This document shows, piece after piece, positions 4,930 to 17,091 of a stretch of 20,517 nucleotides of DNA. This DNA comes from a virus, in the IMG/VR virus record IMGVR_UViG_3300033153_003966, positions 1 to 20,517 of that record; one strand, 5' to 3'. Made by a program: the position numbers and the translations under genes. The notes under the pieces are model-generated. The model was given only the letters and a program-made list of their open reading frames with translations. It did not search any database and was not told the origin of the DNA. The number at the start of each line of letters is the position of its first letter. The first letter of the stretch is position 1.

Positions 4930-5301
4930 ATGCCGCCAGTGAGTAAAATCTCTGTGCATTTTGATAGAACCGAATTCGCATGCAAGTGTGGGTGCGGATT
5001 CGATACGGTGGACATTGAGCTCGTCGAGCTCCTTGAAGATATACGCACTCATTTCAACTCCCCTGTAATCATAAACTCAGGACATCGTTGCACCCAGCAC
5101 AATAAGAAAGTAGGTGGCGGCTCCAAGAGCCAGCACCTGCGCGGCCGGGCAGCAGATATTGAAGTTAGTGGAGTCTCCCCCACAGTAGTGGCAGCGTACG
5201 TGGATCAGCTGTATCCGGATATGTACGGCCTAGGGCGATATTCAAGTTTCACACATGTTGACACCAGGACAGGGAAAGCCCGCTGGGATAATAGAGCATG
5301 A
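4930..5301 (+). CDS. Endolysin, peptidase M15 family (zinc D,D- or L,D-peptidase)
   Basis: It encodes 123 residues. The pattern SGHRC (50-54), then SQHLRGRAADI (67-77), then THVDTR (108-113) is that of the M15 family of D-Ala-D-Ala carboxypeptidase and endopeptidase enzymes (M15_3 type). His69, Asp76 and His109 are the expected zinc ligands. Members cut peptide cross-links of murein, and phage members serve as endolysins. The N-terminal CKCGCGFDTVD segment is also typical. There is no signal peptide or separate wall-binding domain, so release needs a holin. ATG 4930 has no clear SD; GTG 4939, nine bases later and in frame (giving V-S-K-I-S), has a weak ACGGA eight bases upstream and may be the true start. 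The holin-like genes follow after a terminator. Confidence 0.93.
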   Translation: MPPVSKISVHFDRTEFACKCGCGFDTVDIELVELLEDIRTHFNSPVIINSGHRCTQHNKKVGGGSKSQHLRGRAADIEVSGVSPTVVAAYVDQLYPDMYGLGRYSSFTHVDTRTGKARWDNRA

Positions 5302-5308
5302 ACAGTTT

Positions 5309-5361
5309 CCCAGTTTCGGCTTACCCCTACCTCTTCCTCACAGGCCGGGGCTGGGTTTTTT
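5309..5361 (+). terminator. Intrinsic terminator downstream of the endolysin
   Basis: The stem 5309-5320 (CCCAGTTTCGGC) pairs with 5344-5355 (GCCGGGGCTGGG) over 12 bp, with three consecutive T-G wobbles. The loop is a 23-base pyrimidine-rich stretch, and TTTTTT follows at 5356-5361. It begins eight bases after the endolysin stop. The T-tract ends directly at an ATG (5362), so transcripts that read through would carry the next gene's SD immediately after the hairpin. Confidence 0.8.
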
Positions 5362-5376
5362 ATGGAGAGTCCTGAG

Positions 5377-5778
5377 ATGAGAGATTTTGACCCGGTTGAG
5401 TGTACACAGATGCAATCGGACATACACGCTGTTAAAGGCGACATGGATAAACTCGATGATGATATGCATGAAATCAAAGTCATGTATGAGAATGATCCCG
5501 CTCGTAAATTCTTCGGGCGTTGGGGTGGCGCTCTAGGTATAGCTATACTCACATCATTAGGTACAGGACTGTACAATTTCGGCATGGCGGCCTCTACGCA
5601 AGACAGACTCAAAGAAGACCAGGAATCATACGTCACAAAGGAAATGTATAAAGGACATAAGGAGAATACGAACCAACGGTTTACACACGTTGAGGAGGAT
5701 GTAAATGAGATTAAGCAGCTCATTAAAGAACAGAACAAAGGCATTACTGAGTTATTGAGAAGGACCCCGATGCCATGA
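5377..5778 (+). CDS. Membrane protein with coiled coils flanking one TM segment
   Basis: From ATG 5377 it encodes 133 residues. GGAGAG at 5364-5369 lies seven bases upstream, an ideal SD. The earlier in-frame ATG 5362 abuts the terminator T-tract and has no SD, so it is rejected as the start. The protein has an acidic, heptad-like N-terminal helix (about 10-40), a short basic patch (ARKFFGRW, 42-49), one hydrophobic segment (about 50-71, GALGIAILTSLGTGLYNFGM), and a charged helical C-terminal half (75-128). This layout resembles phage membrane proteins of lysis cassettes, such as XhlA-like or spanin-like proteins, but I cannot place it in a named family. Its stop overlaps the next start (ATGA). 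It is likely lysis-related by position; topology is inferred. Confidence 0.8.
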   Translation: MRDFDPVECTQMQSDIHAVKGDMDKLDDDMHEIKVMYENDPARKFFGRWGGALGIAILTSLGTGLYNFGMAASTQDRLKEDQESYVTKEMYKGHKENTNQRFTHVEEDVNEIKQLIKEQNKGITELLRRTPMP

Positions 5779-5906
5779 AACTAGGATTCTTCTCACGTAT
5801 GTTCTATGAAATAAGCCTGAGACGCGAGCGGCGCAGGCAGTGGAAGGAATCTAACAAACTAGCGAAGAAGAGGCAGAAACGTGAAAAAGTGGATCCAGAC
5901 AAGTAA
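5775..5906 (+). CDS. Small basic protein, 43 aa, unknown function
   Basis: This short ORF starts at ATG 5775, sharing ATGA with the previous stop. It runs 43 codons to TAA 5904-5906, overlapping the next gene by 26 bases. AGGA at 5761-5764 lies ten bases upstream, a slightly long SD spacing. The product begins MKLGFFSRMFYEI and then becomes strongly basic (RRERRRQWKE, KKRQKREK), like an amphipathic or membrane-surface helix followed by a cationic tail. Without it there would be a 102-base gap in an otherwise gapless operon, which supports it as a gene. It has no lipobox and no full TM segment. A lysis accessory or membrane-associated role is a guess from position only. Confidence 0.6.
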   Translation: MKLGFFSRMFYEISLRRERRRQWKESNKLAKKRQKREKVDPDK

Positions 5907-6192
5907 GATAGGATTATGGTTTTATGCGCAGACCCAGACGAAAAACTGGTTTACCAGCAAGACTTTCTGGAATAGCGCTGCTCAGAAGGTTGCAGTGCTT
6001 GCTGTCATTTTGCTCGGCATTGACCCTGGCCTGGCTGATCAACTTGCCATTGGTATTACTGCTTTTGCTGCCTTTGGTGTTGATATGTGGGTGCGAAAGC
6101 GAACCACGGTCCCAGTCGGCGATCCTATGCCTTCCAAAGTTAAGCCTGCATCGAAATCAGGCTTTGATGAACACGACGACTATTCAGACTGA
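5881..6192 (+). CDS. Holin-like small membrane protein (SKTFW type)
   Basis: It encodes 103 residues from GTG 5881, with a strong SD (GAAGAGG, 5867-5873) seven bases upstream. The N-terminal NWFTSKTFWNS resembles the SKT-x-W start of many small phage holin-like proteins. Two hydrophobic stretches follow (about 36-46 and 51-70) around a DPG turn, then MWVRKRTTVPVGD, the basic and T-x-P end seen in that group. The tail is hydrophilic and acidic (FDEHDDYSD). These features and the nearby endolysin support a holin that forms membrane lesions and releases the endolysin. It overlaps the 43-aa gene upstream. A second, hydrophobic ORF runs in the +1 frame through this gene and is reported as a finding. 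Confidence 0.75.
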   Translation: MKKWIQTSKIGLWFYAQTQTKNWFTSKTFWNSAAQKVAVLAVILLGIDPGLADQLAIGITAFAAFGVDMWVRKRTTVPVGDPMPSKVKPASKSGFDEHDDYSD

Positions 6193-6239
6193 TGATGAGT
6201 TCTGGGTATATATAACTTGTAGATTAGAGGAGCAGAAAA

Positions 6240-6491
6240 ATGAATCAGATATGGTTTACGGCCCTCCTGTACTTCATGGAGAAACTAATGAAGTCCGACG
6301 TTTTTGAGAAAGTTGAGGAGGCAGTACAGGCATTCTTTGACAAGCAGTTTGATGATATGGCCGGAGGCGATAAGTTCCAAGCAGTTGTCGCAGCTGTAAT
6401 GCCTATCGCTACTGATGTGGGTAAGCTCTTACTGGGAGCAGCAGTACAGATGCTCTACGTTAAATACTCACCGAAGACACCACTTAAGTAA
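6240..6491 (+). CDS. Small helical protein of the lysis region, unknown function
   Basis: It encodes 83 residues from ATG 6240, behind an excellent SD (AGAGGAG, 6226-6232, seven bases upstream). It is predicted mainly helical: an N-terminal amphipathic part (MNQIWFTALLYFMEKLM), an acidic middle (DVFEKVEEAVQAFFDKQFDD), and a hydrophobic C-terminal helix (about 47-71, including AVVAAVMPIATDVGKLLLGA). The last helix could insert in the membrane. Its stop overlaps the start of the next gene (TAATG). I do not recognise the family. Position after the holin-like gene makes a lysis accessory or second holin or antiholin possible, but a small virion protein is equally possible. Confidence 0.75.
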   Translation: MNQIWFTALLYFMEKLMKSDVFEKVEEAVQAFFDKQFDDMAGGDKFQAVVAAVMPIATDVGKLLLGAAVQMLYVKYSPKTPLK

Positions 6492-7765
6492 TGCTAGGCG
6501 ATCGCGGCGGACGCACATTAGGACCCTTCACTGCAGGGGTTAACAACATCGATGGAGAGACGGATGTTCCTAAGGATGCGCTACGCGAGTCGGTAAATGT
6601 CGACATAACCAGAAGCGGCAGCTTAAAGCGCCGTTCTGGATACACACAGCTACAGGCTATGACTAACTCTCATAGTCTGTACCCTCTAGGCAGTAACTCC
6701 GTCTTGTATGTTGAGGGGAGCGACTTAAAAACAATACCACTTGATAATCTTGAAGAAGCCACCCCCACAACATTGGACACAGTAACTGATCAGCTAGCCT
6801 ATGCCAGTGTACTCGGCACCGTGTACTACACAGACAATGTAAAGATCGCCAGAGTACTATCCAACGGAACGCAGAAACTGGCATGGGTGCCGAACCCAGC
6901 TGGAAACCCGACAGTAGTTGATGCCGGGGGCTCATTGATTCATGGTAAATATCAAGTCGCCATTACCAACATAGGGAGTGACGGCGAAGAATCAGGTACT
7001 GACATAGCGGTACCCGTCACAGTCATAAATGGCGGAATTACCCTGACCAACATACCGCAGACCGCTGATGCCCAGGCAGTCAGAGTGTACCTGACTACAG
7101 TAGGCGGCGACACGTTCTACGCTCAGTATGATGTTCCGATGGGAACCACCACATTCACCATGACGAGCATGAAAGCTAGCAGAGCCCTCGAGACTCAGTG
7201 GGCGGACGCTATGCCTGCCGGCCAGGCGCTTTGCTACCACTACGGCCGCTTGTATGTAGCCGTAGGTAATATGCTAGTGTTCTCAGAGGCACTTCGGTAT
7301 GGCCTGACTCGTTTGATGGACAACTACCTACCATTCGGTAGTGACATCAAGGTTGTCATGAGTCACACTACAGGCCTGTTCATTGTGGCAGATAAAACTT
7401 ACTTTATTCCCGGTTCAGACCCCGACAAGGCCCAACTGCGTGAGGTATACCCTCACTCAGCAGTTGCGGGAACTGGCGCTTATGTACCTGCGTCGATCCT
7501 TGGACTCGAGTCACCGGGCACCGCACCTTATTGGTTCTCAGACAATGGTGCCGTTGTAGGAACAGATAATGGGGAAGTCCTACCCTTGATGGAAAAGAAA
7601 GTTTCAGTAGGGCAGTATGAAACAGGGGCAACCCTGTACCGTGAGGAAGACGGAATGCGGAGTCTGATAACCAGCCTCCAAGAAACTGAGCAGCCCAGTA
7701 TATTGGTTGCAACTGACTCCGTGAGCTTCGAGCTTCGAAGAAACGGTATTCCTGTACCTCCATAA
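6491..7765 (+). CDS. Tail nozzle/stabilisation-like virion protein
   Basis: It encodes 424 residues. ATG 6491 overlaps the preceding TAA and has no strong SD, so it is likely translationally coupled. The N-terminal segment (about 10-50: GPFTAGVNN, then PKDALRESVNVDITRSGSLK and RRSGY) is the hallmark of a family annotated in many phages as stabilisation or tail tube proteins. In it a start such as GxNN, ALRxxxNVD and RRRxGY leads into a beta-propeller-like body. Later motifs such as HYGRLYVAVGNMLVFSEAL and YWFSDNGAVVGTDNGEV are blade-like repeats. By analogy with P22 gp10 and T7 gp12 it could form the tail nozzle below the adaptor. That assignment is by remote resemblance. Its last residues contain ELRRNG, a peptide repeated at the start of the next protein. 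Confidence 0.85.
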   Translation: MLGDRGGRTLGPFTAGVNNIDGETDVPKDALRESVNVDITRSGSLKRRSGYTQLQAMTNSHSLYPLGSNSVLYVEGSDLKTIPLDNLEEATPTTLDTVTDQLAYASVLGTVYYTDNVKIARVLSNGTQKLAWVPNPAGNPTVVDAGGSLIHGKYQVAITNIGSDGEESGTDIAVPVTVINGGITLTNIPQTADAQAVRVYLTTVGGDTFYAQYDVPMGTTTFTMTSMKASRALETQWADAMPAGQALCYHYGRLYVAVGNMLVFSEALRYGLTRLMDNYLPFGSDIKVVMSHTTGLFIVADKTYFIPGSDPDKAQLREVYPHSAVAGTGAYVPASILGLESPGTAPYWFSDNGAVVGTDNGEVLPLMEKKVSVGQYETGATLYREEDGMRSLITSLQETEQPSILVATDSVSFELRRNGIPVPP

Positions 7766-7782
7766 GAGAGAGAGAGATTGAT

Positions 7783-8289
7783 ATGAAAAACGAAACTAAA
7801 CTAGCAGGCGTATTCACATACGAGCTGCGCCGTAACGGTAAGATCATCGATACATGGGAGCAACCTAATATTGTTCCTACAGTCGGACTGAACCACTTCA
7901 ACGACGTAGTCCTTAATGGTGCGTCTGCATACGGTACTTGGTATATTGGCTTATATCTCAATGCATATACTCCCGTTGCAGCTAATGTGTATGGCGATAT
8001 CGGTACACTATTCACCGAGATCACAGGTAATTATGATGAAGCTGACCGCCCTCCATATATACCTGACGGAGCAGCAGTTGCAGGGGTAACCTCTAACTCT
8101 GCTTCAAGAGCTACCTTCACGTTCAATGCTTCAGACACAGTAAATGGCGCGCTCTTTGTTTCCGGCAGTGGTAAAGGCATCAACACTGGCGGCATACTAC
8201 TGGCAGCCTCAGCTCACGTACCAGCTCGTAGCGTAATTGCTGGTGATGAATTACTGGTGAAATACGAGTTCTCGGGCACATCAAGCTAA
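7783..8289 (+). CDS. Small beta-rich phage structural protein
   Basis: It encodes 168 residues from ATG 7783. A GAGAGAGAGAGA run (7766-7777) just upstream supplies the SD. The N-terminus (GVFTYELRRNGKIIDTWE, then PNIVPTVGLNHFND) and the block YGTWYIGLYLN match a family of short phage virion proteins that share an RNG-x-I or DGK start, an N-x-V, a GLN and a W-Y-x-G-L motif. The C-terminal half alternates strands with G, S and T turns (TNSASRATFTFNASDTVNG; GDELLVKYEF). There is no signal peptide, TM segment or enzyme motif. It sits among tail and fibre genes, so a tail decoration, fibre-attachment or receptor-proximal role is likely; the precise role is unknown. The next gene starts two bases after its stop. 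Confidence 0.85.
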   Translation: MKNETKLAGVFTYELRRNGKIIDTWEQPNIVPTVGLNHFNDVVLNGASAYGTWYIGLYLNAYTPVAANVYGDIGTLFTEITGNYDEADRPPYIPDGAAVAGVTSNSASRATFTFNASDTVNGALFVSGSGKGINTGGILLAASAHVPARSVIAGDELLVKYEFSGTSS

Positions 8290-8291
8290 TC

Positions 8292-10097
8292 ATGGGTAAA
8301 GGTATCCATGACAGTACTACTGATATGGACCTCGTTTTGGGGCATGAGATGCAGATACGCATTCATGCCCCGGAAGACTTCGGGGGTGACCTGCACATAT
8401 CAGAGGCCGAATCGCAGATGATAGCAGTCTGTGAGTTTGCTAGTTTCGGCGGTATACTCGAGCACAAAACTAAGAAGATACTATCCGACGGCACAGTAAT
8501 CCAAGCGCATCTCATACATGGGATACAGCGAGTCGATATCTATCCGATCATAAATAACAAGAGGGGCGTGTTGCCTTCTGGATTAGTCGCAGTATATGAG
8601 TCAGAGGTCCCTACTGACGGAATCCCTACCGTGTGGCACCGGGATCGTGATAATGACTACTCTAATCTAGCAGGTCAAACTTTCGGCGTATCGTACGGAG
8701 GTATTAGCTGGATAGCCCTAGACGCTCAGTACATACTGTCTCATGGCGCAGCTGATTCTAAGAGATACTGGGGCGTGAGTACCGCAGATAATGGGTACTA
8801 TGTTTATAATCAAGGACGAATCATATCTGATCATGACTTTAGAGTAGTAGGAACAGCAATATACCCGCTCTCCGGAGGAGGATCTAAATACTTAATCACT
8901 ATATGCACTGAGATAACTGGAGGATCGCTCGTTGATTACCTTAAAGTATTCGCTGCCAGTCTCCCAGATATAAATAATGCAGAAACGATGACCCCAGTAC
9001 CTCGCGACGGTTGGACAGAGATCGCACATATAAACTTACCTGGTCCAGGAAGAATTTCAAATTTTAATTTCAACGCGGCTGGAGATTCATGTATAGGCCT
9101 TTATAGTGATGATTCAGAGTCAACAGACGCAAACTCAGCAATCGAGCTCTATATATCAGGTAGCGGTAATACCCCAACATCGTTATCAGTAACTTCGAAC
9201 TTCAGCGCGAGTAGCTGGCCTGGAGCTAAGGTTGTTATAGAGACCACAGGGGAGTTTAATGAGTTTGGATTTTATGGGGACACTACGACAGTAGAAACCT
9301 GGAGTGGTTCAGAGGGGCTAATTGCAGACTATGACTTCGTCTCAGGGATACCAGTATATGGAACTCTCACCTACAGCGGGGGCTCCTCAGCACGTAATTT
9401 TAACGATGGCTGCGTTATAGACTACTGCTTCGGGGAGTACGCCAGTAGCACTATAGAAGAGAAAACAGTTACTCTTGATATGCCACAAGGATCAGAGATC
9501 ATGTACTACAAAAAAACAACCGATGATTATGTAGGTACTTCTTCTGACACAGGTCCACTTACTACAGCAACCTTAACTTACTCAAGGGAAACAATTAACA
9601 CTATTGTAAATTATGTTGATCTGAGATTCGGGGGGGAGCTATCACTAGATAGAAACTCCAGTGAATATCATGCGTCTGGCGAAGTTTCAGTTAATGAGTA
9701 TCCATTTGGGGGTAATGCCGTAGTACCTTCAGCTTCATCATATGAACAAGGGCTGATTATAAAGGAACCCGGTGCTCATGTTTTCTATGAAGGGCCCAAG
9801 TACACAACTGAATCGGAGGGGGTGACTGGGTTTTACAGACCAAGATCAGCACTCGAAGAAGAGATGGGAAAAGAAACATATTACGGTAGTCCTATAGGCA
9901 CTGTTCTGACAGTTACCTTTAGGGGAGTCACTTCAGCTGATGGTTCTTTTATGGTTGAGCTACAGTCACCAGTTGATTTCACACACAGCCACCTAATAGT
10001 TGATCGCGTACTAGACTCATTATACGACCCTATACTTAACTCTGACTTGCCTCAAGGGCAGTCTGCCCCTAGGCTAGATTATTTCGGCCTTATATAA
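8292..10097 (+). CDS. Unrecognised large virion or adhesin-like protein, lower G+C
   Basis: It encodes 601 residues from ATG 8292, two bases after the previous stop and with no evident SD, so it is probably coupled. I recognise no family. The composition is that of a secreted-type beta protein: many G, S, T, Y and D, few K, no signal peptide, no TM segment and no clear repeats. Segments such as GSGNTPTSLSVTSNFSASSW and GTLTYSGGSSARNF suggest Ig-like or jelly-roll folds. Sampled lines (for example those starting 8881, 9061, 9481) count to about 35-38% G+C, against 50% or more in most lines sampled elsewhere, and AGA and ATA codons are more frequent. This suggests recent acquisition. Lying directly before the fibre gene, it may be a receptor-binding or depolymerase-like tail component; this is inference. 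Confidence 0.85.
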   Translation: MGKGIHDSTTDMDLVLGHEMQIRIHAPEDFGGDLHISEAESQMIAVCEFASFGGILEHKTKKILSDGTVIQAHLIHGIQRVDIYPIINNKRGVLPSGLVAVYESEVPTDGIPTVWHRDRDNDYSNLAGQTFGVSYGGISWIALDAQYILSHGAADSKRYWGVSTADNGYYVYNQGRIISDHDFRVVGTAIYPLSGGGSKYLITICTEITGGSLVDYLKVFAASLPDINNAETMTPVPRDGWTEIAHINLPGPGRISNFNFNAAGDSCIGLYSDDSESTDANSAIELYISGSGNTPTSLSVTSNFSASSWPGAKVVIETTGEFNEFGFYGDTTTVETWSGSEGLIADYDFVSGIPVYGTLTYSGGSSARNFNDGCVIDYCFGEYASSTIEEKTVTLDMPQGSEIMYYKKTTDDYVGTSSDTGPLTTATLTYSRETINTIVNYVDLRFGGELSLDRNSSEYHASGEVSVNEYPFGGNAVVPSASSYEQGLIIKEPGAHVFYEGPKYTTESEGVTGFYRPRSALEEEMGKETYYGSPIGTVLTVTFRGVTSADGSFMVELQSPVDFTHSHLIVDRVLDSLYDPILNSDLPQGQSAPRLDYFGLI

Positions 10098-10109: not shown

Positions 10110-11915
10110 ATGGCTGACCAGATATTATTTTCAAACAACGGCGCTACAGCGTTAAGTGTAGGTATCGACTCTGTCACGACAACTGTCTCAGTGTCTGACG
10201 GCACTGTCTTTGACACTCCCGGCGCTAATCAATACACCTTAGTTACAGTTGTAAGTGATACTGGTGTTGAGATAATGAAATGCACCGCCGTTGCAGGTAA
10301 CACTCTTACAGTAGTGCGAGCCCAAGAAGGCACATCAAATCTGACTCACTCTAATGGCTCTGTGATATCAAACAGAGTTACTGCGGATACGATGGATCAA
10401 TACCCACAAGGATTCGATAATGATGGCGATGCTAAGGGAGCAGGTGCGGTTAACTTGCAAGGCTCTCGCAGTGCTAGCACGCAGGTGGCCAGTGGCGCAG
10501 ATGCCATCACAGTAGGTAATAACACAACTGCCAGTGCCGTAGAGGCTGTAGCGGTCGGTAAAAACTCATTAGCAGATGCTGCCTATGCTGTTGCTATTGG
10601 TGGAGCTGACGCTGGGGGTCAGGCAGCAGTTGCCGCTGGATTCTCGGCAGATGCTTCTGGACTTGCAGCCATATCATTAGGTGATAGCTCAAATGCTAGT
10701 GGTGATGGTTCCAGAGCAGTTGGACAAACCGCAACCACCAATCAGGATAGAAGCATCGCGGACGGCTACGCCGCACAGGTAATTGATACTGAGGCTGGTA
10801 TTACCACCTGGTCTGCTGCTGAAACGGTAGTAATCGGAGACCTTAGAACAGCCAGTGTTAGCCACCGTATACTTGAGTGTGTCACAGCCGGAATAACTGG
10901 CGGAAGCCAGCCGTCACTGCCAACGATTGTTGGAGGGCTAGTCACAGATAATACGGCGGAGTGGGTTTACATCGGGGCATCAATATCAACCGGGGGCATT
11001 GCTCGTGGTAACTCTGCGTTGGCTATTGGTGGAGATACGATAGCTGATGGGTCGAACACCACAGCGGCTGGTGATGGGTGTGTTGCTATACAAGCTGACT
11101 CTGAGGCGAGGGGCTTAAATAGCACCGCTATCAGTGGGAAAATCACCGGTACAAGTTGCGGTGTATTCAATGGACAATTTAGTTCTGCTGTCCCATCCCG
11201 CGCTCCAATCCGAGCAACAATTATCGGTAATGGTGGCGTTGCTGTTATCAGTGAGACAACAAAGCTGTACGGTCCAGATTATGTTTCTCTTGAGTCGTGG
11301 CTTTATGAGGGCGGTAATGCACCCCAAGAACATATGCCAGTATCAGCAAAAGAACAAGTGTTCTGTTCACCACCACTGACTACCGGCGTAAGCTCATGGG
11401 CGGCAACAACTAGCTATGTTCATAATGAGTGCGTTACACCGACCACTCCAAATGGGTATAGCTATTATGCTTACTGCTATCCAGCTTTCGGGGACTATTA
11501 TGAAGACCAAATTTCAGGTGGAACTGAGCCAGCAATTTGGCCTACTACTCCCGGCGATTCAGTTGAAGATGGTGGTGTTTGGTGGATCTGTGTTGACCCA
11601 GCGAATATCAGGGTAACTATCCCAGACAACCTGAGATTCATTCCGCGAGAGGTTGGCTTCCTTTGTGACGCACACGCTGACGTTACTCCCGGCACTCAGC
11701 CGACAATTAGCTGGGGAGTTCAAGCTAACAAAGCCAAGTGGAAGGCGGCAACAATAACTACCATGCTGGTAGGCCCATATGCAGGGCAACACTTTGATGT
11801 AACCAACTCAGAAGGGGCAAAAGACCTGACGGCAGCGGTTACAATTCTTGGGAGCGGCCAAACTTCTGGTGTCGTTTACTGGAAGGGCATTTGCGTGGAG
11901 ACAATGGATGCCTAA
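10110..11915 (+). CDS. Tail fibre with YadA-like beta-roll and two W-A-A modules
   Basis: It encodes 601 residues from ATG 10110, behind AGGAGAG (10099-10105). Residues about 12-77 (SVTTTVSVSDGTVF; TLTVVRAQEGT) are the N-terminal domain seen in many phage fibres. Residues 128-221 and 293-345 are roughly 14-residue repeats of the type AVAVGKNSLADA and ALAIGGDTIADG, like the left-handed parallel beta-roll of YadA-type trimeric adhesins. Between and after them are two similar modules beginning W234-S-A-A and W430-A-A-T and ending in T-or-E-D-x-x-x-x-W; these resemble carbohydrate-binding-like fibre modules. The C-terminal 100 residues (NLRFIPREVGF; VVYWKGICVE) match a C-terminal fibre domain common in phages. 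It is most likely a trimeric host-recognition fibre. It overlaps the next gene by eight bases. Confidence 0.92.
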   Translation: MADQILFSNNGATALSVGIDSVTTTVSVSDGTVFDTPGANQYTLVTVVSDTGVEIMKCTAVAGNTLTVVRAQEGTSNLTHSNGSVISNRVTADTMDQYPQGFDNDGDAKGAGAVNLQGSRSASTQVASGADAITVGNNTTASAVEAVAVGKNSLADAAYAVAIGGADAGGQAAVAAGFSADASGLAAISLGDSSNASGDGSRAVGQTATTNQDRSIADGYAAQVIDTEAGITTWSAAETVVIGDLRTASVSHRILECVTAGITGGSQPSLPTIVGGLVTDNTAEWVYIGASISTGGIARGNSALAIGGDTIADGSNTTAAGDGCVAIQADSEARGLNSTAISGKITGTSCGVFNGQFSSAVPSRAPIRATIIGNGGVAVISETTKLYGPDYVSLESWLYEGGNAPQEHMPVSAKEQVFCSPPLTTGVSSWAATTSYVHNECVTPTTPNGYSYYAYCYPAFGDYYEDQISGGTEPAIWPTTPGDSVEDGGVWWICVDPANIRVTIPDNLRFIPREVGFLCDAHADVTPGTQPTISWGVQANKAKWKAATITTMLVGPYAGQHFDVTNSEGAKDLTAAVTILGSGQTSGVVYWKGICVETMDA

Positions 11916-13014
11916 TCAACTCGAAATTAATGGGGCTGCCATTAATGGCGCACTCACTGGCGGGAATCTGGATCTTAGCGCAGCGCTGGCATACACCAAC
12001 ACACTACATACTCAGTGGGGGCATGCATATACAACAGACTATGAGATGCAGGATGTCACAGTAAATAAAGTCGGCTTCGTACTCAACGTGCTAGGCGCGC
12101 TGCACTTCACTAATACAAGTAATGTACTACAGCAACTGGAATTTTCTACCTCATTCAACCTGACTGGCGATACTACTGTTAATGGTGACATCATACTTGA
12201 GTTCATAGCCTCACTAGTCATTGCGGGCGAGTCTATTACTGCTCTAAATGCTCTTGTAGCTATTGCAGAGACCATAGCCAATTCTGATTTCTCAAGCTCA
12301 GCTTTTGGAGCTAACTTTTTAACCGCGCTAGACCTTGATCCAGCCCTAGACATCGACTACCACCTAGCATTTAACGCGCTGTCAGAGTTACTCTTAACAG
12401 ATACTCCCACAATGACAGCGCGTATACTGGTAGCTCCTACAGAGAGCCTCGTTTTAATAGACGATCTAGACACTAATGCAGTATTCGGAGCTTTGTTTGA
12501 GGAAGGCTTGGTCATGGGTGGCCTGCTCAACACACCTGAGGGGGTGTTCGAGGCATGGGTGGTAAATGCTGAAACAAAGGCGCCGTTCCAGTACGACAAC
12601 TTCCCGTTTAACTCCTTCGCTCAAGTGAGTGGCAGGTATCTGGCTATGTCAGATACAGGGCTATACGAACTCACCGGCTCCGATGATGCTGGCACTTCCA
12701 TCAATGCGATTATTAAGACCGGCCTGACTAACTTCGGGTCAAACCTAAAGAAATCAATACCTAGGGCATATTTCGGTTATACTTCTGATGGAGACTTACT
12801 GTTTAAAACGATCACCACATCTACCGGCAAGAAGGTAGAAGATTGGTATAGACTTGAAGCACGGACTGTTGACGACACGAGGGATACACGGGTTAAGATC
12901 GGAAGAGGTCTTTTGTCAACATACTGGCAGTTCGAAATTGTAAACGTAGATGGAGCTGACTTCGATATCGATGATATCAAGCTTCTTCCTGCAGTTTTGA
13001 AGCGGAGAATTTAA
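11908..13014 (+). CDS. Conserved phage virion structural protein
   Basis: It encodes 368 residues from ATG 11908. GGAG at 11897-11900 lies seven bases upstream, so 11908 is chosen over the in-frame ATG 11848 deep inside the fibre gene. It overlaps the fibre stop by eight bases. The N-terminal half (ELING pattern, about 1-170) is a low-complexity run of A, L, N and T strands. The C-terminal half is the recognisable part: APFQYDNFPFNSFAQVSGRY, GLYELTGSDDAG, IKTGLTNFGSNLKKSIPRAY, EDWYRLEAR, VKIGRGLLSTYWQFE and LPAVLKRRI. These match a conserved phage structural family I know only as a hypothetical virion protein, typically next to the long helical protein encoded immediately downstream. It is probably a tail component; its biochemical role is unknown. 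Confidence 0.88.
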   Translation: MPNQLEINGAAINGALTGGNLDLSAALAYTNTLHTQWGHAYTTDYEMQDVTVNKVGFVLNVLGALHFTNTSNVLQQLEFSTSFNLTGDTTVNGDIILEFIASLVIAGESITALNALVAIAETIANSDFSSSAFGANFLTALDLDPALDIDYHLAFNALSELLLTDTPTMTARILVAPTESLVLIDDLDTNAVFGALFEEGLVMGGLLNTPEGVFEAWVVNAETKAPFQYDNFPFNSFAQVSGRYLAMSDTGLYELTGSDDAGTSINAIIKTGLTNFGSNLKKSIPRAYFGYTSDGDLLFKTITTSTGKKVEDWYRLEARTVDDTRDTRVKIGRGLLSTYWQFEIVNVDGADFDIDDIKLLPAVLKRRI

Positions 13015-13015
13015 T

Positions 13016-14818
13016 ATGGGATGTGGCGGCGCAGCAAGTCCAGTAGTAGGTATAGTAGGAGCGGCGGCAGGACAAGGCTTCACCGCACCTAACGCTATAG
13101 AGGTATCCTGGACAGCAGTTGATGTCCCAGGCTATAACTCTCCTGGCATAGGATCACTCACAATAGGCGGTGATCCTCCTTCAGTCCCCGGCATACCTTT
13201 CAATATGCCAAATTCCCCGTTTGTTGCTGGCGGCGGAAACATAAGCCCGTTAAATACAGGCACTGTACCAACATTCGCTGGAGGCGACCCAGGTTTTGGG
13301 CTTCCACCACAACCAGGTGCATTTACAGAGATAGCTCCTTCTGGAACTCCAGGAATAGATGATGTAACTGTACCAGATCCCCCTGACATAGAACCACTGC
13401 CTGACCTACCCACAGTCGCAGATGCAGATCTCCCTGATCTACTTCCTTTAGATATCCCTGTGTTCGCACAGGAGTTCCCAGACGCTACGGGCATAGTAAT
13501 CCCGTCAAATACTTTTGATTTCGTTGAGGCTGATTACACGTCAGACGTGATAGACAAGACCACCACTGAGCTGATGCGTATGCTCGATGGTGAGTTAATA
13601 ATCCCAGATGAAGTATGGACGCAGATATTCGAACAAGGGGCAGATCGTGAAGAAGTATCAGGTGCAAAGCTTATTACTGAAGCTACTGATGATTGGGCTG
13701 CTAGGGGCTGGGCTGCTCCTAGCGGTGTACTTGATAAGCGAATCCGTGAGGCACGTCAGAGCGTACAAAACTCACGAAACACCCTGGCTCGTGACACCAC
13801 CATCAAGCGGGCGGAGCATGAAATTGAGAGTATTAAGTATGCTATAGCTCAGGGTGTGGCCTTTGAGACCATGCTTATTGGCCTGCACAACTCTATTCAG
13901 GACAGAGCGTTAAAGGCTGCTGAGTTAAGTGTGACCATAGCCATTCAGTTAATGAATGCTCAGATCGCCATATATAACGCAGAGTTGCAGGCATACCAGA
14001 CTGCAGCTAACGTATTCAAGTCTTTGCTGGACGCAGAGATCGTTAAAGTAGAGATCTATAAAGCTGAGATCCAAGCGGCTAGTCTGGTTATTGATGTGGA
14101 TAAGGCCAAGATTGAAGCTTACAAGGCTCAAATCGAGGGACTTAACTTACTGGTAGAGCTACATAATAACCAGATAGCAGGCATAAATGCTCAGGTAGCT
14201 TTAGATAAATTACGTGTAGATGCGTTTAAATCCCAGGTAGATGTATACGTAGCTCAAGTGGGTGCTTGGTCTACCGAGTGGGATGGTTACAAAGCAGCTA
14301 CACAAGCTGAGACGGCTAAGGCCCAAGTATTTTCTGCCCGAGCACAAGCGTATGCAGCTGAGGTAGGAGGGTATGAAGCTGGTGTACGAGCCGCAGCAGT
14401 TAAAGTTGAAGCTGACGCCAAGACCATAGAGATAGATATAGCACGCATGTCAGCCGATGCTACTAGATTCGCAGCAGCTGTTTCAGGCCAAGCAGCAAGG
14501 GCCAAATCGATAGCAGATACATACAATGCCCAGATGGCGGGGTACAGTGCTAGCGCTGCATTTGGAGCAGCACAGGCAAGAGCATTTGAAGCAGAGTTGA
14601 ATGCTAGCGTGGCAGATGCGAAAGCAGCTGCTACCGCAGGGATAGAGGGCGCACGTATAGCGGCCTCCCAAGCAGATGCACAGAGTAGAGCGATAGTATC
14701 AGCGGCAGAGACGACTGCTAAGATCGAGGCACAGCTAGCAGCTAGTCAATTAGGTCAATTCAGCGCAATTGCTTCTCACAGTGCTAGCTCTACTGACAGC
14801 TTCAGCTACAGTTGTTAA
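13016..14818 (+). CDS. Pro-rich, long alpha-helical phage virion protein
   Basis: It encodes 600 residues from ATG 13016, with GGAG (13004-13007) eight bases upstream and one base after the previous stop. The N-terminal 20 residues are glycine/alanine-rich. Residues about 50-165 form a Pro, Gly and Asp-rich extended region. A conserved patch (about 200-245: WTQIFEQGADREEV, TEATDDWAARGWAAPSGVLD) comes next. After that the protein is almost entirely helical (about 245-585), with recurrent Q-I-x-x-Y-x-A-E, E-A-Y-K-A-Q-I-E and A-R-A-Q-A-Y-A-A-E units, suggesting a long coiled coil or helical hairpin. I recognise this architecture from conserved hypothetical phage proteins paired with the gene just upstream. 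It has no TM segment or lipobox (Cys3 lacks a signal). It might be a tail shaft, scaffold-like or ejected protein. Confidence 0.88.
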   Translation: MGCGGAASPVVGIVGAAAGQGFTAPNAIEVSWTAVDVPGYNSPGIGSLTIGGDPPSVPGIPFNMPNSPFVAGGGNISPLNTGTVPTFAGGDPGFGLPPQPGAFTEIAPSGTPGIDDVTVPDPPDIEPLPDLPTVADADLPDLLPLDIPVFAQEFPDATGIVIPSNTFDFVEADYTSDVIDKTTTELMRMLDGELIIPDEVWTQIFEQGADREEVSGAKLITEATDDWAARGWAAPSGVLDKRIREARQSVQNSRNTLARDTTIKRAEHEIESIKYAIAQGVAFETMLIGLHNSIQDRALKAAELSVTIAIQLMNAQIAIYNAELQAYQTAANVFKSLLDAEIVKVEIYKAEIQAASLVIDVDKAKIEAYKAQIEGLNLLVELHNNQIAGINAQVALDKLRVDAFKSQVDVYVAQVGAWSTEWDGYKAATQAETAKAQVFSARAQAYAAEVGGYEAGVRAAAVKVEADAKTIEIDIARMSADATRFAAAVSGQAARAKSIADTYNAQMAGYSASAAFGAAQARAFEAELNASVADAKAAATAGIEGARIAASQADAQSRAIVSAAETTAKIEAQLAASQLGQFSAIASHSASSTDSFSYSC

Positions 14819-14829
14819 CAGGATAAGTC

Positions 14830-15543
14830 ATGGCATATAGAACACTCTCAGATCTCATCAACCAGTTCAGGATCGACAATGACGATACTGAAAAGCCGTA
14901 CAAGTGGACTGACTCAGAGGTCTGTCGGTACTTCGACCAGGCACAAGAGCGACTGTGTGAGAAGATCAATATCATTCCGGATGTAATCAACTTCCCGTAC
15001 GTGGTAGATGATACGACTATCATTCGCCCTGAGTACATTACGCAGGTGCGTTCGGTGTTCGATACTAGCAATGAGACTATCCAGGTGCTGATTAAGAACT
15101 ATACTCAGTGGACTGAAGAACAAAGAGGGTACAGCTGGGAGGCCGACGAGGGCACTCCAGTAGTCCTTATCGAAGACATGTTTAAGGACCTGTGGCGACT
15201 GTACCCGATCCCCCAGGCAACTGGTGCGTTACGCATAGCAGTGTTCCGCAAGCCAACGAAGTCACTTTCTATTAGTCCATTGCTGGAGATCACGAACTTA
15301 CAACAACAAGAGGCCCTTATCCTGCACGCCCGGTACAAGTCGTACCTGAAACAGGATGTGGACATCTTTGATAAGATGCAATCAGCTTCATTGAAGCTGG
15401 AGTATATGGAGGCTGAAGCTGCGATAGATAAAGCAGTAAGCCGCAAGCAGCGCAGCCCGGCGAAGGTACGGTACGGTGGTATCGATATGGAGCCGGGGCA
15501 GTACGACACGTACAAGCGCAACAACAGACCGCGTTATTTATAA
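14830..15543 (+). CDS. Head-tail adaptor-like protein (T7 gp11-like class)
   Basis: It encodes 237 residues from ATG 14830, with AGGA (14820-14823) six bases upstream. The start (SDLINQFRIDNDD, KWTDSEVCRYFDQAQERLCE) is the typical pattern of a phage adaptor family in which an acidic helix is followed by W-[ST]-D-x-E-[LV], an aromatic residue and an A-Q-x-x-[FL]-C motif. A beta-sandwich-like middle (VVDDTTIIRPEYITQVRSVF; DLWRLYPIPQATGALRIAVF) and a helical C-terminal part (LILHARYKSYLKQDVDI) follow. Members join the portal ring to the tail, as gp11 does in T7; DUF6682-like proteins are similar. A head-tail connector role follows from this resemblance, at moderate confidence. No portal gene is in the window, so it probably lies further away. 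Confidence 0.85.
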   Translation: MAYRTLSDLINQFRIDNDDTEKPYKWTDSEVCRYFDQAQERLCEKINIIPDVINFPYVVDDTTIIRPEYITQVRSVFDTSNETIQVLIKNYTQWTEEQRGYSWEADEGTPVVLIEDMFKDLWRLYPIPQATGALRIAVFRKPTKSLSISPLLEITNLQQQEALILHARYKSYLKQDVDIFDKMQSASLKLEYMEAEAAIDKAVSRKQRSPAKVRYGGIDMEPGQYDTYKRNNRPRYL

Positions 15544-15556
15544 CTGAGGAAGAGAA

Positions 15557-15952
15557 ATGAAAGCAAAGAAAATGAAAATGCTAAAGGACTTTCGCCTGAT
15601 TACAACTATGGGCTATGTAGTGGATTTTAAGGCAGAGCAGCCTATTCGCGTACCTCCCATGGCGGTAGAAATGGCCATCGAGAAAGGCGCTATCTTCTGC
15701 GAAGAAGATGAGAAGTTCATCCCAAACAACGAGCTGACTGAGAGCGTAGAGCCAGTATTTGGATACGAGCGTAAACAAGCGATCTATGATGTGTGCAAGA
15801 CGATCGCAGCGAAGAACGAATCAGAAGCATTCACAGCTACTGGCGTACCCAAACTACCATTGGTAGTAGAAGAAATGGGCTATCAGGTAGATCGTAAAGA
15901 AGTAAATGAAGCGTGGAAGGCTGTACAGCAGTCCATCGCTAACGCGGAGTAA
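15557..15952 (+). CDS. Small conserved phage structural protein, 131 aa
   Basis: It encodes 131 residues from ATG 15557, with GAGGAAGAG (15546-15554) as SD. The N-terminal MLKDFRLITTMGYVVDFKAE and the nearby VPPMAVEMAIEKGAIF match a small phage family with a K-D-F-R-L-[VIL]-T-x-M-G start and a V-P-P-x-x-V motif, usually encoded close to capsid or adaptor genes. Residues about 75-130 form a separate helical region (AIYDVCKTIAAKNESEAFTA, then VDRKEVNEAWKAVQ). That part resembles a small DNA- or protein-binding helical bundle, but nothing specific can be named. It is likely a minor head or connector protein; alternatives remain open. Confidence 0.8.
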   Translation: MKAKKMKMLKDFRLITTMGYVVDFKAEQPIRVPPMAVEMAIEKGAIFCEEDEKFIPNNELTESVEPVFGYERKQAIYDVCKTIAAKNESEAFTATGVPKLPLVVEEMGYQVDRKEVNEAWKAVQQSIANAE

Positions 15953-16854: not shown

Positions 16855-17091
16855 ATGGCAAGAGTAGCAGTAGCAGATGAACTTGATAGGCCGGGTAAGC
16901 TCATGCCTAAAAAAGCACGTAGGAAGAGCATAGCCGGTAGACGTGTCGGGCTTGATCGCTCAACTGAAAGCTTTACCGTGGGAGCAGCGAAGGCATTGCT
17001 CAGTGCAGCGAAACGCTCCCCCTATACTTCGATACTAGCCCCCACTGCTATGGGTGATGGTACTATGCACGCAAGACGACTTAAGAGGTAA
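16855..17091 (+). CDS. Small basic phage protein, 78 aa, unknown function
   Basis: It encodes 78 residues from ATG 16855, behind a strong SD (AGGAG, 16844-16848, six bases upstream) that overlaps the end of the previous gene. It is clearly basic: ARRKSIAGRRVG near residue 20-32 and MHARRLKR at the C-terminus, with a helical ESFTVGAAKALLSAAKRSP stretch between. The fold is unrecognised. A basic short protein among presumed internal virion genes might bind DNA or an acidic partner in the capsid. Its stop lies two bases before the next ATG, and its AAGAGG also serves as that gene's SD. Genuine by SD and spacing; function unknown. Confidence 0.72.
   Translation: MARVAVADELDRPGKLMPKKARRKSIAGRRVGLDRSTESFTVGAAKALLSAAKRSPYTSILAPTAMGDGTMHARRLKR

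Follow-up and report, generated by a model that had tools for sequence, protein, structure and literature searches.

The window analysed here, a 20.5-kb IMG/VR record, contains at positions 8292 to 10097 of the plus strand an open reading frame encoding a protein of 601 aa, referred to as P0001. The frame starts with an ATG 2 nt after the preceding ORF stops; the next ATG is found 12 nt downstream of the end of the frame. The coordinates and the length given in the initial annotation were confirmed by the ORF listing. Two conserved genes precede it on the same strand, the gene of the Hc3 head closure protein (6491 to 7765; phrog_8040, E = 5.6e-62) and the gene of a phrog_8123 protein (7783 to 8289; E = 6.7e-20). 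Downstream, also on the plus strand, are located a gene for a tail-fibre protein with YadA-head-like repeats (10110 to 11915), a conserved gene for the phrog_26502 virion structural protein (11911 to 13014; E = 4.4e-26), whose start was set by us at 11911 and is at 11848 in the ORF list, and a conserved phrog_10969 gene (13016 to 14818; E = 2e-86). Neither RNA families nor tRNAs were detected in the window, and only short imperfect pairs of repeats are present at the borders of the P0001 gene.

The tail-fibre gene resembles P0001 in lying between the same conserved genes and in being tail-exposed by its annotation. Unlike P0001, it has PHROG tail-fibre matches (phrog_8469 and phrog_30299, with Pfam YadA_head below the cut-off) and relatives in other contigs. 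Compared with the fibres of four of these contigs (L021-L024), it shows 37% identity over the first ~290 residues and 36% over the last ~97. It thus appears to be another gene with conserved ends in the same slot, and it is a competing candidate for the receptor binder.

Other parts of the window are also worth describing. Positions 4930 to 6491 hold an M15 peptidase endolysin and, after it, small ORFs in which hydrophobic stretches were recognised by eye; this is likely a lysis cassette within the tail gene block. Downstream of phrog_10969, positions 14830 to 15952 carry a phrog_399 structural gene and the gene that follows it. Relatives of this pair lie directly upstream of Hc3 in many related loci (L089, L091, L102 and L110, for example), so the order of modules in the window is rearranged.

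Concerning the product of the P0001 gene, the statement that it resembles no known family held in every search. PHROGs, Pfam, NCBIfam, PDB sequences, phages, plasmids and two IMG/VR scans were all blank, and no whole-length relative was found. At E values up to 10 the libraries returned chance-level matches only (Pfam E of at least 0.057, tblastn E of at least 5), with none in PHROGs and none relevant in Pfam. The tblastn search against phages gave no match at E up to 1e-5 and two at E up to 10 (E of 5 and 8), the one against plasmids (E up to 1) gave zero, and PDB sequences gave 0. The IMG/VR pattern scans, run with the whole protein and with its last 162 residues, detected no relatives. In phmmer searches of 6,583 ORFs and, later, of 2,151 genes of related loci, the best E values were 0.58 and 0.19, which are not credible. 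No enzyme family was assigned to P0001 from Pfam, NCBIfam or PHROGs, and the profile search found neither a T7-type tail-fibre anchor nor any named Pfam or PHROG tail-fibre family in it.

The variable slot in related phages

The order Hc3, phrog_8123, variable slot and phrog_26502 was found in seven named phages, which are Pseudomonas phages F116, 8P, KPP25 and Atpa001, Acidovorax phage AP1, Methanosarcina virus MetMV and Podoviridae ctwe8250, as well as in many IMG/VR contigs. These contigs were retrieved through the genes of the block, and two lists were used (the best 80 of 188 and the best 80 of 98). All seven named phages have a relative of phrog_26502, and one of phrog_10969 is clear in five of the seven. 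The interval from phrog_8123 to phrog_26502 varies in content: it is empty in L028 and L168, in many loci it holds a single protein, at most 954 aa long, and it is occupied by several small genes in others. The description of the gene as lying between conserved tail genes is supported, and the locus is a variable slot with conserved flanks. P0001 comes directly after Hc3 and phrog_8123, and the fibre gene intervenes before phrog_26502, as in L018 and L021-L024, where a slot protein and a relative of the window fibre are both present.

Thirty-nine distinct Hc3-phrog_8123 pairs were considered (L002-L170). The next gene is a slot gene carrying the anchor domain described below in 22 of them, another gene in 15 and phrog_26502 in two. 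The 22 anchored genes, six of which are cut off by the end of the contig, follow with a gap of -1 to 19 nt. An anchored gene is near by in seven of the remaining 17 loci (L036, L051, L090, L091 and L092, L062 upstream of Hc3, and L168 after phrog_26502). Hence, it is directly next or close in 29 of the 39 loci, with none near in 10; this proportion characterises the set and should not be taken as an independent test, because most loci built the profile or resemble its members. Loci lacking a labelled adjacent phrog_8123 or Hc3 (L029-L034 and L104, for example) are outside the 39. In L168, which belongs to a Halieaceae MAG, the anchored gene (7653 to 8554) is placed after phrog_26502 and not before it; therefore, the slot unit changes place.

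Some tail modules (L003, L014-L016 and L165-L167) present two phrog_8123 genes around other variable genes. They belong to Methanosarcina virus MetMV and to contigs binned as Methanoperedens, Peptococcaceae and a deltaproteobacterium. The same tail module is present in archaeal and bacterial contexts.

Ten other slot proteins were compared with the libraries as well. Pfam yielded nothing for any of them at E up to 0.01, and two hit phrog_11362, a family of unknown function. As far as the scans of Pfam, NCBIfam, PHROGs and PDB sequences show, the kind of object is already known and the anchor family is unnamed in these libraries. Literature searches for the slot gene family returned no title, a statement that concerns those searches only, and the available portions of PMC4936722 and PMC11577772 hold nothing on the slot protein.

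Putative N-terminal anchor domain

Slot proteins from different phages (L004, L010-L013, L018, L024 and L025) are alike mainly in their first ~75 residues. A profile of this region was built from the N-termini of 27 slot proteins in 20 groups, leaving P0001 out, and was compared with a background of 4,573 sequences (1,000 shuffles of P0001, 3,559 minus-strand ORFs and 14 other proteins of the window). P0001 scored 14.0 bits (E = 0.0074), which is weak in absolute terms, and the best background sequence scored 10.3. When one group was left out at a time, P0001 outscored every background sequence in each of the 20 tests (13.2-16.6 bits), the closest being 15.1 versus 14.4. Accepted members of the family sometimes scored lower when they were left out themselves (L039 -0.7, L036 0.0, L026 2.0, L018 2.2 and L006 5.6 bits). 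The profile also caught the L168 gene mentioned above (L168_7653) at 35.9 bits, although this gene was not used in its construction. The window fibre gave no match among the best background rows listed, except for 1.9 bits with one profile.

Other profiles were used too. With an earlier and smaller one, P0001 outscored all 500 shuffles in 12 of the 13 leave-out tests and failed in one, and a longer profile of a subgroup of ten members gave no signal (6.8 bits versus 6.7 for the best background). An alignment of 21 full-length slot proteins, too gappy, another that contained a row in a wrong frame, and the first N-terminal set were put aside. The profile-profile comparison by hhalign yielded a P of 5.9e-5 and a probability of 65% over residues 35-87.

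These data suggest, weakly but above every control, that the N-terminus of P0001 shares a domain with the slot proteins of its relatives. The domain would correspond to residues 1-86 (8292 to 8549, plus strand), of which ~22-86 are confidently folded in the AlphaFold model. As P0001 apparently keeps the anchor, any exchange would have been limited to the body. P0001 thus probably belongs, as a divergent member, to the slot family delimited in this analysis and to no named family, and an orphan becomes a probable member of a recognisable slot.

Structure predictions

The AlphaFold model of P0001 was computed with an alignment of the N-terminal rows of 23 slot proteins. Mean pLDDT values by block were 84-96 for residues 21-80 and 78 for residues 81-90. 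In this part, the model presents a strand (23-25), a helix (32-53) and three strands (57-63, 68-75 and 78-85). The variable body, residues 87-601 (8550 to 10094, plus strand; 44.4% G+C), is presumed to be exposed and host-facing; its pLDDT is mostly below 60, with 408 of the 601 residues of the protein below 50, and its fold is not interpretable.

The slot protein of phage F116 was also modelled, with 36 sequences, and reached a mean pLDDT of 88.6 and a pTM of 0.74, with 66-86 in its first 70 residues. Its start shows a strand (8-11), a helix (18-38) and three strands (42-48, 54-60 and 63-69). The strand-helix-strand-strand-strand order, with similar lengths, is common to both models, which have one alignment row in common (L058). 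The predicted anchor of P0001 thus has the fold of the slot family, in a model that rests largely on the rows of the relatives and is for this reason not fully independent.

Fold searches were made with both models. The search of viral structures with the P0001 model returned three of 609 matches at E up to 0.001, with a TM of ~0.09 and an rmsd above 30, and matches of the whole model are meaningless because the prediction of the body is unreliable. For the anchor, the best PDB row, which stands among unrelated small alpha/beta proteins, had a Z of 4.6 over 62 residues. With the F116 model, none of the 253 viral or 250 PDB matches from Foldseek had an E of 0.001 or lower, and a second fold comparison gave 262 rows with Z of at least 2 and six with Z of at least 5. 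Many of the best 50 of these 262 rows, which extend over residues ~140-865, are what we take to be beta-propellers. This is a hint at most, as the Z values may reflect only a common arrangement of the chain. A recurring 'FN..G' motif, recognised by eye, led us to consider a propeller reading of P0001 itself, which is not claimed.

Variability of the body

The identity between slot loci was compared in 29 pairs. In nine sister pairs the slot bodies are hypervariable, with 21-36% identity, while Hc3 retains 48-84% and phrog_8123 57-92%. One of them is L038/L045 (Hc3 84%, phrog_8123 92%, anchor 76%, body 36% and phrog_26502 65%). The other eight are pairs among L004, L012, L018, L024 and L025, with 48-61% in Hc3, 57-70% in phrog_8123 and 31-51% in the anchor. 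Their bodies present 21-28%, often over short aligned lengths, and shuffled bodies give 23-32%. Downstream of the slot in these pairs, identity is only 37-42% in phrog_26502 (six pairs compared) and 44-61% in phrog_10969.

Ordinary divergence was observed in other loci, such as L090, L091 and L092 (Hc3 86-91%, body 65-69%). The same is true of L006/L007 (70% in Hc3 and 47% in the body), L007/L008 (97% and 87%), L101/L104 (38% and 33%) and L067/L089 (34% and 31%). For the phage of the window, the best Hc3 identity to any relative found is 38%. Judging from these identities, either body exchange or fast divergence could fit the pairs, and the slot bodies may have been exchanged in addition to evolving fast.

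The F116 group

In the F116 group, the slot gene is inherited vertically together with its neighbours. Body identity to F116 is 36-93% (n = 32 compared), alongside 44-99% for Hc3 (n = 27 compared), the length of the protein is steady (848-874 aa), and a conserved F116-type body was found in 74 IMG/VR loci. The F116 protein (phrog_11362, F116p54 of Pseudomonas phage F116) is like P0001 in following Hc3 and phrog_8123 and in having the strand-helix-strand-strand-strand N-terminus. The difference is that the body of P0001 is an orphan with no detectable kinship.

The start deposited for F116p54 (position 9917 of the locus) is 30 codons downstream of the one used here (L007, 9827 to 12424), and the shorter form would miss the beginning of the anchor domain. 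With the upstream start, the N-terminus can be aligned in 36 sequences, in which the first Met is invariant. In L171, positions 6001 to 8595 encode an 865-aa protein of unknown function that is 100% identical to the F116 slot protein.

Possible function of the slot protein

Anchored receptor-binding proteins, such as the T7 and K1F fibres and the spikes of Klebsiella phages, combine a small N-terminal domain with a variable body, according to the accessible part of PMC6872550. Receptor-binding proteins are also among the most reshuffled phage proteins, as stated in the available text of PMC10684548. The slot proteins are similar to T7 and K1F gp17 and to the KP32-type spikes in having a short conserved N-terminus near the nozzle gene and a body that varies between relatives (PMC6872550, accessible part). 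On the other hand, the anchors and spike domains of those proteins have no Pfam or PHROG match in P0001. Among the relatives, the combination of a conserved anchor and a body variable between sisters appears in nine pairs and not in all 29, and receptor binding is putative.

A receptor-binding protein of the anchored kind has a small conserved domain by the nozzle region joined to a large variable body, and because of this layout P0001 is read as a docked tail appendage. With a probability of roughly 0.55, it would be a host-facing appendage on the tail of a podovirus-like phage, having a conserved N-terminal anchor and a variable body in contact with the host. The first ~86 residues would act as a docking domain that fixes the protein to the tail, most likely through the phrog_8123 protein encoded next to it or through the Hc3 region. 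Residues ~90-601 would form an exposed and fast-changing body able to contact the host surface. The host-range cassette proposed in the initial annotation is in line with the variable slot and with a position and architecture that fit host contact, and the part of that proposal that is not supported is the argument for acquisition from low G+C.

The neighbouring fibre suggests a different division of labour, in which P0001 is a structural component of the tail (a plug, a collar or an extension of the nozzle) that changes fast for reasons other than the receptor, and the fibre is the one that binds it. The recognisable tail-fibre gene that adjoins P0001, the fibre relatives beside the slot gene in L018 and L021-L024, and an F116-group protein that keeps 848-874 aa and diverges like Hc3 all agree with this role. 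Nevertheless, it seems unlikely, considering the eight pairs with bodies near the shuffled baseline between conserved flanks and the many relatives in which the slot protein is the sole large protein of the slot.

It is less probable still that P0001 is a tail-borne, depolymerase-like enzyme degrading surface polysaccharides and docked by the same anchor. Its layout would be that of the anchored depolymerases in the accessible part of PMC6872550, and F116 reportedly digests alginate (cited in PMC5217972, partial text). Nevertheless, nothing ties the alginate activity to the slot protein, no enzyme family was found for P0001 in Pfam, NCBIfam or PHROGs, the ten other slot proteins lack Pfam matches at E up to 0.01, and the F116 model lacks Foldseek matches at E up to 0.001. 

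The F116-like phage phiC725A did not grow on pili-less mutants and has long tail fibres, and F116 reportedly binds type IV pili; the available part of the paper that describes phiC725A assigns neither pilus binding nor alginate digestion to the slot protein (PMC5217972).

Returning to the docked, host-contacting appendage, a broader proposal can be put forward tentatively, although it is doubtful. The slot proteins could form a widespread unnamed class of podoviral host-recognition appendages, with one docking fold of ~65 residues and bodies replaced or diverged beyond recognition. This class would include the F116 slot protein, which would meet the type IV pilus in F116-like transducing phages. 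With P0001 as a probable slot member, the uncharacterised genes next to phrog_8123, both in many environmental phages and in F116, a classical transducing phage, become testable candidates for host contact.

Base composition and codon use

A marked drop in G+C had been reported for this gene. The dip is genuine but mild, with 44.9% in the P0001 gene versus 49.4% in the remainder of the window. The stretch of 1806 bases with the lowest G+C of the record (44.4%) starts at 8648, overlapping the gene and extending beyond its end, and the gene of lowest G+C in the window is not P0001 but the one at 5362 to 5778 (43.9%). The range of 35-43% given for positions 8881 to 9540 was not reproduced, as the computed value is 43.6% overall and the eleven 60-base lines vary from 37 to 52%. 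The abundance of AGA and ATA codons is real, with 6.3 AGA, AGG and ATA per 100 codons, but it is not unique to P0001: there are 5.2 in 13016 to 14818, 10.1 in 16855 to 17091 and 7.0 in a doubtful ORF at 5924 to 6307. GC3 is 0.392 in P0001, close to the fibre gene (0.395) and above 13016 to 14818 (0.383).

The G+C of P0001 predicted from its amino-acid composition and the codon use of the other genes of the window is 47.4%, leaving a residual of -2.4 points (z = -3.5) after this correction. Amino-acid composition accounts for about half of the dip. The conserved gene at 13016 to 14818 has a similar residual (-2.2 points, z = -3.3). Within P0001, the first 258 bases have 48.4% G+C and the remainder 44.4%, the first part being too short to give weight to this value.

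Slot genes of the relatives show the same tendency. They are below their flanks in 17 of 23 loci of the first set of relatives (mean -2.0 points), in which L006, L007 and L008 are F116-like, and in 28 of 31 loci of the F116 group (mean -2.5 points), many of them close relatives. Compared with the 3 kb upstream, 30 slot genes, some near-duplicates included, differ on average by -2.7 points in the body and -0.8 in the anchor, and in 20 of these 30 the body has a lower G+C than the anchor. A weak match of 202 aa in L017 was excluded from these counts.

Base composition thus does not set P0001 apart from backbone genes or from vertically inherited equivalents. Contrary to what had been proposed, a recent acquisition cannot be read from the dip, because amino-acid composition explains about half of it, a conserved neighbour has the same bias, and the F116-group equivalents dip although they are inherited with their neighbours. 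It is typical of a slot-type protein and gives no date of arrival, and a low-G+C tail gene is not necessarily a recently acquired one.

The least probable reading is that P0001 is an unrelated recent arrival that resembles slot proteins by chance, since its overlap with the lowest-G+C 1.8-kb stretch of the record, its whole-length orphan status, its residual codon bias (z = -3.5) and its weak anchor match are opposed by the equal residual of a conserved neighbour, the dips of vertically inherited equivalents, a match that exceeds every control and falls at the gene end and in the place where it would be expected, and a phrog_8123 spacing as in the relatives. Among the loci compared, the strongest candidate for a recent arrival may be the slot gene of L102 (8976 to 11564), with 45.9% G+C between flanks of 60.6% (-14.7 points).
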